Source: Muribaculaceae bacterium
GTDB taxonomy: Bacteria; Bacteroidota; Bacteroidia; Bacteroidales; Muribaculaceae
Length of the DNA stretch: 64,000 nucleotides
NCBI GenBank assembly: GCA_022510405.1
Contig: JAFLTP010000003.1
Coordinates: 62,001-126,000 of the forward strand
Direction of reading: 5' to 3'
Position numbers and translations under genes: made by a program. The notes beneath the pieces were generated by a model. The model ran no database searches. It worked only from the letters and a program-made list of their open reading frames with translations, and had not been told where the DNA came from. Below, piece after piece: positions 7,764 through 11,115 of the stretch (position 1 is the stretch's first letter; each line of letters begins with the position of its first letter).

Positions 7764-7907
7764 AAAAAGAAAAATTTGGTTAATAAAAAATTTGATTAAT
7801 TCTCAATGTTTGATTTCTTCAAAAACCCTTTTCGCATCTTGATTTCATCGAAATTGATGTATATATTTTCAAGACCAAAAACGTAATGTTTTTGTAATTA
7901 ATTGGCA

Positions 7908-7938
7908 CAAAGCTACTTACCCCCCCCCATTTTTGCAA
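7908..7938 (-). promoter_or_regulatory. Promoter of the secreted protein gene, with G9 tract in the spacer
   Basis: On the minus strand a -33 TTG (7938-7936) is followed by exactly 20 nt and then a -7 box TAGCTTTG (7915-7908), matching the Bacteroidetes pattern. Nine consecutive G (plus-strand C at 7920-7928) fill the middle of the spacer. A start near 7900 would give a leader of about 135 nt. One-base slippage of the tract would move the spacer off the 20 nt shared by the other promoters in this window. The rest of 7764-7907 holds no gene. Confidence 0.7.
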
Positions 7939-8035
7939 GTTAAAAATTCTTAAAAATTAAAAATGTGGTGTTTATCTAAAATAAATCACCGATAGAAGAC
8001 AGGGTCACAAAAACAACAAATCCGGCTTCATAAAC

Positions 8036-8360
8036 CACCCTGAAGGGGTCGAAGAGAGGTAGCCGGGGGTTGAGGAGGAACGACGAAACCCTCCGGAAAA
8101 TTAAAATGGATTCTACCCTCTACCCCCATCCCACCCGTTCGGGTGAGATGGGGACAATTGGTTGGTGTGATTGTGTCCCAATTTTTTAATCCGGAGGGTT
8201 TCCGCTACGCTCCAACCCCCGGCTAACACTCTTTGGGCCTTTCAGGGCCCTTGTTCTTGAAGCTAAACATTCTCCCTCTACCCTTCTTTAACCCTTTCAC
8301 AGCCATTATTCTTGAACATAAACATTCTCCCCCACCCTTCTTTAACCCCTTTCAGGGAGA
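8036..8360. repeat. REPIN-like palindromic element, copy A
   Basis: A long imperfect palindrome. A left arm at 8059-8097 (AGCCGGGGGTTG ... AAACCCTCCGGA) faces a right arm at 8190-8226 (TCCGGAGGGTTT ... CAACCCCCGGCT). The centre at 8125-8153 is itself a hairpin (CCCATCCCACCC/GGGTGAGATGGG). A small REP-type hairpin ACCCTGAAGGGGT precedes it (8037-8049). A tail of about two and a half ~54-bp units follows to 8357, each with a CCCTTTCAGGG-type core. It lies 3' of the DUF4143 ATPase gene and may also end its transcript. A near-identical full copy is at 10670-11115 and a right half at 9815-10050, all in the same orientation. Confidence 0.85.
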
Positions 8361-8372
8361 TTTGAGTATATT

Positions 8373-9725
8373 CTAAAATATAAATTGTTTTATTTCTTGC
8401 AATCCCAAGAACATGGAGTAATACACCGGCATATAAATTATATTCCCTTTTGTTTCTACCTCTCTATTGTTTGACAAAACTATCCCATATTTAATATTAT
8501 ATTCCTTATTTTGGAGCAGATTGGAGATTGCGACATGTCTTTTGTAATCTTTTCCTGATTTTACCTCCAATGGAAGAATTGAAAGATTTTCATAATCGTT
8601 TATCATGAAATCCACCTCTCCTTTTTTCCTATTGTCATAATAAAATAACTTTAGGTCATGGGCAGCCAATTCCTCTGCCACAGCGTTTTCATAAACCGAT
8701 CCTAAATTGATGCCTGCATGGCTTTCTATTATGGGTTGAATATTGGTGGAATACAATTGAGAAGTAAGCAAACCCACATCATTCATATATAACTTAAACA
8801 AATTCTTATGCATCGACTCTTCAAGAGGAAAAATTGGATTGCTGATGGCCTTTACATTCAGTGAGATTCCCGAAGCAACCAAATATTCAAATTCATTTTC
8901 ATATCTTGAATACCTATCTTTCTCCAAACCTTGAATATCTTTGAATACAAATCTCTTTTTTACATTCTCCATTCGGGATGGTATAAGATTGTAAATGGTT
9001 CTTATGAGTAATTTTTTAGAAAATTCTTTTTCATATCTCGAGGCATCAACTCCATATAGGTTGTGGATCTCGTTTTGCACTTTTCTTACATTCACTATAT
9101 TATGAGACTCCAGGTAAGAATTCACAGGTTCGGGCAATCCTCCCACTAAAAGATATCTCTTGAAATGATTCAACGTTAAATCATGCATTTCCTGCGGCAG
9201 GCTCTCTTGTGCATAAAATTTTTCTTTCAAAAAAGCAATAAAGTCCTTTCCCACATTATTAGCCATTAAATATTCTTCAAAATCCAAGGGATACATCTTT
9301 TCTCTAATTATGCTGCCAATAGGAATGGAAATAGTTTGATGAAGCGCTACCCCTAAAAGACTTCCACTTGCAATAAAATGATATTTTTTATCTTCCCTAA
9401 GAAATTTCAAAAGAGTTAGATATTGCGGATATGTTTGGATTTCATCCAGGAAAACAAGCGTGTTGTCATAATTTTGCAGTTTGTCACCGGCTATACTGCT
9501 TAATGCCAGATAGATTTCTTCAGTTGTCTTAAGATTCTTAAATAATTGTGGACCCTCTTCATCTTTTACAAAATTTATTTCAACAAAATTTTTAAAAACC
9601 TTTGTGCCGACATACCTGATGATAAATGATTTGCCTACTTGTCGAGCTCCTTCTACCACCATAATTTTGTCGGAACCAGATTTTAAATGAGACTCTATTT
9701 TATGGCTTATCTTTCTATACAACAT
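8373..9725 (-). CDS. AAA ATPase with DUF4143 / PD-(D/E)XK-like C-terminus
   Basis: This 450-residue protein has a P-loop ATPase domain: Walker A GARQVGKSF (about residues 25-33), Walker B LVFLDEIQTYP (about 90-100) and a sensor-like FIASGSLLGV. The C-terminal DUF4143 part ends in a nuclease-like signature GEVDFMINDYENLSILPLEVKSGK (D...ExK, about 375-400). Such solo ATPases are widespread and multicopy in Bacteroidetes; their role is unsettled, with DNA-related, mobile or toxin-like roles proposed. The gene sits between palindromic copies A and B, and its start is preceded directly by three 33-bp repeats whose last copy ends a few nt before the ATG. It is not obviously in an operon. Its A/T-rich codon use differs from the efflux genes nearby, which fits acquisition with the island. 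Confidence 0.85.
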   Translation of the reverse strand: MLYRKISHKIESHLKSGSDKIMVVEGARQVGKSFIIRYVGTKVFKNFVEINFVKDEEGPQLFKNLKTTEEIYLALSSIAGDKLQNYDNTLVFLDEIQTYPQYLTLLKFLREDKKYHFIASGSLLGVALHQTISIPIGSIIREKMYPLDFEEYLMANNVGKDFIAFLKEKFYAQESLPQEMHDLTLNHFKRYLLVGGLPEPVNSYLESHNIVNVRKVQNEIHNLYGVDASRYEKEFSKKLLIRTIYNLIPSRMENVKKRFVFKDIQGLEKDRYSRYENEFEYLVASGISLNVKAISNPIFPLEESMHKNLFKLYMNDVGLLTSQLYSTNIQPIIESHAGINLGSVYENAVAEELAAHDLKLFYYDNRKKGEVDFMINDYENLSILPLEVKSGKDYKRHVAISNLLQNKEYNIKYGIVLSNNREVETKGNIIYMPVYYSMFLGLQEIKQFIF

Positions 9726-10189: not shown

Positions 10190-10645
10190 ATGCCCCATAC
10201 CTCATTATTGATTCATATTGTGTTTGCCACCTACAATCGTGATAACACAATCAATCTACAACAACGGAAAGATCTATATTCATATACCGGTGGTGTTATT
10301 AAAAATTTGAAATGTAAACCATTGGCAATTGATGGCATGTCGGATCACATTCACATATTCGTTGATCTTCGTCCTTCTCTTTCTGTGTCGGATTTTGTGA
10401 AAACTATCAAGCAATCAACCGGGAAATGGATTAGAGACACCCATAGATTATTGGATTTCAAAGGATGGCAAGAGGGATATTTTGCGGGGACAGTGGGTCC
10501 GGACGGTAAACAACGATGTATCAATTATATCGAAAATCAGGGTGTTCATCATAAAGGCCAAGCATTCCTGGCAGAAATGGAATGGTTGAAACTGAAATAC
10601 GAGATAGAAGATTTTGTAAAAAACGGAACTCCCATAGAGGACTGA
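10190..10645 (+). CDS. REP-associated tyrosine transposase (Y1/HUH, IS200-like RAYT)
   Basis: The 151-residue protein is a single-domain Y1 transposase. It has the HUH metal motif in SDHIHIFVDLRP (His-Ile-His, about residues 47-49), an upstream KCKPLAIDGM strand, and the helix YIENQGVHH near residue 122, whose Tyr is the expected nucleophile for single-strand cleavage. SVSDFVKTIKQSTGKWI is also typical. No IS200/IS605 tnpB partner is present. It is flanked on both sides by copies of the same palindromic element (B upstream, C starting ~30 bp after the stop), the arrangement expected of a RAYT that mobilises or maintains REP/REPIN sequences. Length is normal and no frameshift is seen. A TATCTTTG -7 box at 10148-10155 lacks a clear -33 partner. 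Confidence 0.9.
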   Translation: MPHTSLLIHIVFATYNRDNTINLQQRKDLYSYTGGVIKNLKCKPLAIDGMSDHIHIFVDLRPSLSVSDFVKTIKQSTGKWIRDTHRLLDFKGWQEGYFAGTVGPDGKQRCINYIENQGVHHKGQAFLAEMEWLKLKYEIEDFVKNGTPIED

Positions 10646-10669
10646 ATCCCAAAATCTACAAATCCGGCC

Positions 10670-11115
10670 TCATAAACCACCCTTTCAGGGTCGCATAGAG
10701 TTAGGGCGAACCAAGGATTAGTTTTGGATTGATAGACGACCCTGAAAGGGTCGCAGAGTGTTAGCCGGGGGTTGAGGAGGAACGACGAAACCCTCCGGAA
10801 AAATTAAAATGGATTCTACCCTCTACCACCCATCCCACCCGAACGGGTGGGATGGGGTTGTATGGTGTGTGATTGTGTCCGAATTTTTAATCCGGAGGGT
10901 TTCCGCTACGCTCCAACCCCCGGCTAACACTCTTTGGCCCCTTCAGGGCCATTTCTCATGAACATAAACATTCTCCACTACCCTTCTTTGGCTCCTTTCA
11001 GGGCCATTGTTCTTGAACATAAACATTCCCCTCTACCCTTCTTTAACCCCTTTCAGGGCCATTTCTCCGGAAAAATAAATATTCTTCCTTTACCCTTCTT
11101 GGCACCTTTCAGAGC
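10670..11115. repeat. REPIN-like palindromic element, copy C (longest)
   Basis: Two REP hairpins come first: CACCCTTTCAGGGTCG near 10678 and CGACCCTGAAAGGGTCG at 10738-10754. Then follow a left arm (10758-10799), a perfect 12-bp central stem CCCATCCCACCC/GGGTGGGATGGG with loop GAAC (10829-10856), and a right arm (10891-10930). The outer 17 bp (GTGTTAGCCGGGGGTTG) and inner 12 bp (AAACCCTCCGGA) of the arms are perfect inverted repeats. A tail of about three ~54-bp units with CTTTCAGGGCC cores runs to about 11115. The -7 box of the efflux operon lies 70 bp further on. Confidence 0.85.

Follow-up and report, generated by a model that had tools for sequence, protein, structure and literature searches.

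G tracts in surface-protein promoters of Muribaculaceae as probable length-variable tuners, and a divergent candidate member upstream of an 813-aa exported protein

Does a pure run of nine G in a promoter spacer mark a switch, a fixed regulatory element or an accident of composition? The question is raised by a site 145 nt upstream of a gene for an 813-aa protein, in a 64-kb window (the whole stretch of DNA analysed here) of a Muribaculaceae genome, for which a preliminary description had proposed a phase-variable promoter. The motif given there is present as described: positions 7938-7908 (-) read TTGCAAAAATGGGGGGGGGTAAGTAGCTTTG, i.e. TTG, 20 nucleotides including nine G, and TAGCTTTG (Table 1), with a pure G9 tract in the TTG-N20-TAGCTTTG spacer.

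Table 1. Features of the candidate promoter and its downstream gene, in positions of the window
Feature	Position	Strand	Basis
Pure G9 tract, promoter spacer	7920..7928	-	Sequence
TTG, candidate -33 element, N20 from the -7 element	7936..7938	-	Sequence and motif count
TAGCTTTG, candidate -7 element (TAnnTTTG)	7908..7915	-	Sole such motif on the same strand in 7764-8100
TAAG adjoining the 3' end of the tract	7916..7919	-	Sequence
TTTAAC, degenerate counterpart of a GTTAA box, start 29 nt before the TA of -7	7939..7944	-	Weak, AT-rich region
TTTAAG, second degenerate box, 10 bp upstream of the TTTAAC box	7949..7954	-	Weak
Downstream gene, 813 aa	5322..7763	-	Hydrophobic N-terminus; C-terminal module common to other ORFs of the genus

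The core promoter spacing of this site is common in the window. TTG-N20-TAnnTTTG is present eight times, against 1.23 expected, and none of 100 shuffles reaches eight; six of the matches are intergenic and upstream of ORFs, and those at 9639(+) and 58890(-) are located within ORFs. Six comparison promoters had been named in the preliminary description, of which five are indeed intergenic and upstream of a same-strand ORF and the sixth, 58890(-), lies inside an opposite-strand ORF; the eighth match, 9639(+), was absent from that list. With distances of 8-34 tried, N=20 is the commonest distance between TTG and TAnnTTTG in the window (8 of 74 -7 motifs), which agrees with the earlier suggestion that the tract sets the spacing at an apparent optimum. 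Non-tract motifs in the loci of relatives show a peak at N=19-20 (13 and 19 of 224).

The G9 tract is the sole G/C run of at least seven in the 64 kb. The whole genome (3.02 Mb, 73 contigs) possesses four runs of at least nine, whereas a first-order model built on the window and extrapolated to the genome predicts about 19, so that long G runs per se are not in excess. One of the other three, a G10 on contig 10, resembles it in context (ATG10TAAATGATTTTTG) and precedes a glycosyltransferase family 4 gene by 92 nt. Other long runs have other surroundings: a G10 (C10 on the coding strand) precedes the start codon of an outer-membrane-protein-like gene by about 38 nt (L003, G000:C20:26343-26352), G8-G10 runs are found within repeated tail-fibre-like ORFs (L006, G000:C73:75603-75612, and L254; context ...MGG...), and genome G005 has a G9 within a coding region. 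At the last three, slippage inside the coding sequence of phage-type genes is possible.

Promoters with a G tract form a class in Muribaculaceae, present in a third of the sampled genomes of the family and placed mostly before genes for exported products, fimbriae and outer-membrane receptors among them. Class members carry G7-G11 followed by TA or TG upstream of TAnnTTTG, and upstream of the tract GTTAA boxes with a 10-bp period in phase with the -7 element. The pattern GTTAA-N1-12-G7-N4-26-TAnnTTTG matches in 135 of 397 genomes and 23 of 30 genera, versus 7 genomes for the reversed control (control counts for this and the tandem-box pattern below were read from tables by eye). Its distribution is uneven, with 5 of 84 genomes in the genus of the window, its own genome excluded, versus 130 of 313 in the rest of the family. 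A stricter pattern that requires TA after the tract is found in 3 of 387 genomes of the order outside the family versus 3 of the 6 family genomes sampled with them, and in 1 of 395 genomes of a phylum sample; phylum-wide spread is rejected on this last count. The class is not strictly confined to the family, as one site belongs to Prevotella sp. 885 (L099). Further sites are present in Duncaniella muris DSM 103720 (L144) and Paramuribaculum intestinale DSM 100749 (L094, NZ_PUED01000021.1); the latter site is shared by G245, and a stretch of the former genome recurs at 100% identity in G196, on which the assignment of the sampled family to Muribaculaceae is based. The sites of the family genomes G327 and G330 reappear in records titled Barnesiella and Bacteroides (L125, L156), such titles being a poor taxonomic guide. 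Many single matches in unrelated phyla, obtained in a wider search, were treated as background.

Targets of the class promoters include fimbrial and SusC-like genes. From 132 sites with flanks, 25 without a downstream ORF by the rule used were removed, leaving 107 for an export test by hydrophobicity, a crude rule that overlooks some exported proteins and wrongly flags others in either set: the downstream gene looks exported at 86 of these 107 tract sites versus 9 of 18 plain sites of the same box type (p 0.013). In a random 30 of the 107 downstream proteins, Pfam matches comprise TonB-plug/SusC-like (4) and DUF3575 (3), single occurrences of outer-membrane barrel, fasciclin, leucine-rich, PD40, DUF4595 and CBM77, and three families of cytoplasmic type (AraC, YceD, O-methyltransferase); 14 proteins have no match. 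Two D. muris-like genomes (G196, G261) contain a dispersed repeat of about 100-120 bp just downstream of the L144-type promoter, in about 10 copies per genome.

Judging from their architecture, the G tracts in the surface-protein promoters of this family probably act as length-variable on/off tuners. An activator, probably of the response-regulator type, would bind the tandem GTTAA boxes upstream, and a sigma-ABfr-type RNA polymerase would engage the TTG/TAnnTTTG core. The pure G7-G11 tract would fill the stretch between box and -7 element, often giving the G of the -33 TTG; slipped-strand mispairing at replication would add or drop a G and shift both the -33/-7 and the box/-7 distance, and the shifted distances would raise or lower transcription, heritably and reversibly, separately at each surface-protein operon. 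The main rival takes the tract for a fixed regulatory element in cis, a G-box (about GGGGGGGGTAA) that an activator or the RNA polymerase recognises within an alternative promoter of exported-protein genes, its length drifting slightly without being a switch. We regard a fixed G-box as rather unlikely, although the concentration of the class in one family is as expected of one regulator.

The anatomy of the tract bears on both readings. It was recorded for 140 of the matches listed (88 genomes), after removal of one row with Ns and of repeat-tract rows. Among these 140 sites, G7 occurs 17, G8 59, G9 50, G10 11 and G11 3 times. The predominance of G8 or G9 (109/140) and the bases after the tract (TA in 125 and TG in 9, together 134/140; TAA in 105) speak for a G-box, and the strong conservation of TA(A), not needed by a mere slippery spacer, counts against the slippage reading. 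So does the lack of compensation by the flanks, as correlations between tract length and flank length are near 0 in the same 140 listed sites. The variable distance from the tract to the TA of the -7 element speaks against a fixed box, with modes near 12-13 and 21-24 among these sites and values as short as 4-5. TT precedes the tract in 55 of the 140 listed sites, in which case the first G of the tract completes a TTG, and this TTG lies at N19/N20 from -7 in 34 of the 55.

In the 132 sites with flanks, which include chance sites from other phyla, 81 of 111 gaps between successive GTTAA starts measure 10 bp, and the distances from GTTAA to the TA of -7 peak at 31, 41 and 51 nt. A 10-bp period in phase with -7 is as expected of a putative activator bound on one face of the DNA. 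The tandem-box pattern GTTAA-N5-GTTAA-N23-31-TAnnTTTG, chosen without reference to G, is present in 225 of 397 genomes and 25 of 30 genera (reversed control 10). Its longest G run was determined in 147 of the matches listed, two exact repeats and one multi-N row being removed and one row keeping an N: the run is at most 5 in 120 sites, 6 in none and 7-10 in 27, and shuffles of these sites expect 0.09 with a run of at least 7. The gap in run lengths implies that the tandem-box promoter exists in a plain and in a G-tract form. The absence of G6 also speaks against a drifting G-box, as do the high purity of the tracts (27 pure versus three interrupted among the 147 listed), the G11 reached in the larger set of listed sites and a single C9 version (G126:C11:7710-7758, a tandem-GTTAA promoter with C9 in the place where others have the G tract); the interrupted G-rich forms, e.g. 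GGGGAGGGG before TAA, are nevertheless in its favour and count against the slippage reading. Among the matches listed, the distance from box to -7 is 27-28 nt in 95 of 117 plain sites (longest G run at most 4). The tract sites range from 24 to 29 nt, with 27-28 in 9 of 27 (Fisher p 3e-6). Such a spread is expected if a changing tract length moves the promoter about its working distance and frequently away from it; alternatively, G-rich DNA may have a different optimum.

Tract lengths differ between similar promoters. In 13 groups picked by eye from the matches listed, tract length differs in seven and is equal in six, the latter favouring a G-box and opposing a slippery spacer; the wider flanks are merely 60-80% alike in several groups, and one of the seven differing groups (j) shows an apparent base substitution. 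In the cleanest cases, L269 and L271 have G7 and G8 with 100/100 identical bases downstream, and L097 and L172 (one record titled Alistipes) have G9 and G11 with 38 identical aligned bases upstream and AA after the tract; three promoter copies in one genome possess tracts of 9, 11 and 9. Differences in length between otherwise near-identical promoters are evidence against a fixed G-box; slippage is their presumed cause, and a change of length would be expected to alter expression.

A search of IMG/VR for strain-level copies gave 50 matches, mostly background judging by sequence, with one useful near-identical pair of fimbrial contigs; two further scans returned only the same two. Identity between these contigs is 98% over 1.1 kb and 96.5% over 6.6 kb. 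Both have a fimbrial operon in which a DUF3575 gene is followed by a DUF6562/Mfa2-like one, and the promoters read AAAAC-G8-TA versus AAAACAT-G10-TA, a difference of 4 nt at the tract; no other internal indel exceeds 1 nt within roughly the first 5 kb. This difference fits a hypermutable spot, yet it is not a pure change in the number of G. The promoter region of the pair has no match in the phage and plasmid collections. Six IMG/VR contigs (L200, L204, L217, L228, L234, L236) show TTTAATCA-ATGTTAAG-type flanks followed by G8, G9 or G10, and so represent similar loci that differ in G count. In one contig of the near-identical fimbrial pair (L340), the third gene past the tract, fimbrillin-like, is apparently split into two ORFs near an A run.

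The promoter of the window has a homopolymeric tract between its promoter elements, and its G9 TAAG TAGCTTTG follows the order of tract, TA and TAnnTTTG seen in the class. Its upstream boxes are of the TTTAA type instead of GTTAA, with TTTAAC 29 nt and TTTAAG 39 nt from -7, a spacing of 10 bp, and the strict family pattern GTTAA-N1-12-G7-N4-26-TAnnTTTG finds no match at this promoter; for both reasons it is called divergent. With moderate confidence we place it as a divergent member that would work like the class without belonging to it strictly. That the G9 is a slippage-prone spacer in the promoter of the 813-aa exported protein, and this promoter a divergent member of the family-wide class, appears slightly better than an even chance.

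It is improbable that the G9 arose by chance or is neutral, inside an ordinary sigma-ABfr promoter with no relation to the class. Such an origin would agree with the absence of true GTTAA boxes, the rarity of the class in the genus (5/84), the excess of predicted over present long runs in the genome and the homologues described below, whose promoters have no tract. It agrees poorly with the position of the only G/C run of at least seven in 64 kb, which falls exactly into a spacer of the commonest length, with TAA after it, and with the situation in the genus, where 11 of 111 genomes each have one run of at least eight G within 16 nt upstream of TAnnTTTG and 2 have the reversed pattern. At 10 of these 11 sites the tract continues into TA or TG, GTTAA lies just upstream at 5 and some TTAA box at 9; several precede genes with signal-peptide-like starts, and one precedes a DUF3575 gene. 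A promoter-like site of the same genus (L256) combines TTTAAC repeats with G9TAA in the style of the window and likewise disfavours chance. In the window's own genome, TTAA-N0-18-G7-TA matches only the window promoter and one coding tail-fibre-like site, with one match for the control, a result that counts against placing the site in the class.

The N-terminus of the 813-aa protein is signal-peptide-like as judged by eye, in keeping with an exported product, and Pfam gives only a sub-threshold Ig-like match. Its C-terminal residues (about 60) recur in many other ORFs of the genus. The surface-sorting tail claimed for it earlier does not correspond to a recognised T9SS domain: searches of Pfam and NCBIfam with the whole protein (E up to 1) gave no match to a T9SS sorting model, nor did those with the last 109 residues (E up to 10), where HMMER filters remove most weak matches. 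The models of the type A sorting domain, the C-terminal domain of T9SS type A cargo, are TIGR04183/PF18962, and neither matches the protein at these thresholds; SprA of the type IX secretion system is encoded in the genome, though.

The locus of the window is known from one assembly of the species, and a full-length orthologue of the protein is found neither in 100 relatives of the genus nor in a wider pattern search of contigs. Upstream of the paralogue in the same genome, G runs never exceed 4. The homologue in G008, whose last 39 nt before the start codon are 90% identical, has G runs of at most 5 over the 260 nt upstream, and that in G096 none above 3 in its upstream region; upstream of the homologue in G061 a G7 run lies at about 240 nt, apart from the TAnnTTTG of that gene. 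G025 was left out of the comparison, since the ORF obtained there is a different one from the homologue. The lack of a tract at the promoters of the homologues examined weakens a phase-variable reading of the window site. Of the phase-variable promoter first proposed, there remain the G tract in a core spacer of modal length, its recurrence across the family at promoters of exported proteins and its differing length between similar promoters, and these homologues are set against it; function at the window site itself would be conjectural.

On a broader scale, one activator and tandem GTTAA boxes may govern many surface operons, with independent slippery G tracts at a subset of them, in a distributed contingency system; this extension is tentative, somewhat short of an even chance. 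If true, the tracts would decide in each individual cell which of the operons for fimbriae, SusC-like receptors and lipoproteins can answer, and clonal populations would carry combinatorial surface states without a recombinase.

Homopolymer tracts in promoters are known from other bacteria. The poly-G tract of the Neisseria porA promoter, an analogy already drawn in the preliminary description, is a fair parallel, and the fim promoters of Bordetella, for which BvgA activation and its geometry form the background, appear to be the closest system in working and the better fit. We know of no family-wide activator box shared by Neisseria tract promoters. According to the available part of PMC1891110, a C-stretch adjoins the fim box of fim2, fim3 and fimX, its length (7-22) varies among strains and alters the transcript level, and a sister species has interrupted forms (C6TC3, C9TC8). 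As far as described there, the two systems have in common a homopolymeric G/C tract in surface (fimbrial) promoters, in an element that also holds an upstream box, as well as interrupted tracts (here three sites); they differ in that Bordetella, a betaproteobacterium, has poly-C, whereas the present class has poly-G of 7-11 in a Bacteroidales -33/-7 promoter, with a tandem GTTAA box of 10-bp period and many unrelated operons. Excerpts on Neisseria describe a poly-A tract in the nspA promoter (PMC6389960) and nadA as an example of a promoter tract (PMC2791445). In nspA, nadA and porA, the length of a homopolymer or short repeat in or near the promoter sets the expression of a surface protein; the promoter type is another, and effects were measured there, whereas the present class is known from sequence alone.

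Within Bacteroidales, the core of the class is of the -7/-33 type of the sigma-ABfr promoter of Bacteroides thetaiotaomicron (PMC7366714). The accessible text on that promoter and on PM2 of the same species describes a G tract or a tandem GTTAA box for neither motif, whereas the class has both, and PM2 was set aside as a precedent, as was, on its accessible text, a Bacteroides capsule paper that mentions slippage. An Akkermansia paper, in the part available, concerns mononucleotide repeats in a coding gene. The view that a homopolymer spacer had not been described in Bacteroidales holds for the open-licence literature, mostly at the level of titles and opening lines of abstracts, where no report of such a promoter was recognised.

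In the sources available, DNA inversion is the main form of phase variation described for gut Bacteroidales, with surface structures of Bacteroides under promoters that invert between inverted repeats (PMC10994844, PMC13343947). The class shares with these accounts a candidate phase-variable transcription of surface structures in Bacteroidales, and differs from them at the window promoter, for which an invertible promoter is not indicated and was rejected, since a search of 7764-8372 found no inverted-repeat pair bracketing it. G-tract promoters would represent a second route of phase variation, invisible to searches for invertible DNA and hidden by consensus assemblies. Three inverted pairs are present within 7764-8372, both arms of each upstream of the core promoter, and large inverted repeats occur in 8038-8247 (35 nt at 83% and 25 nt at 80%). 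Upstream of the promoter lies one copy of a dispersed repeat (7989-8062), with a second copy at 10631-10704 (78% identity over 74 nt). An ORF nearby (10190-10645) appears to resemble a REP/IS200-type transposase.
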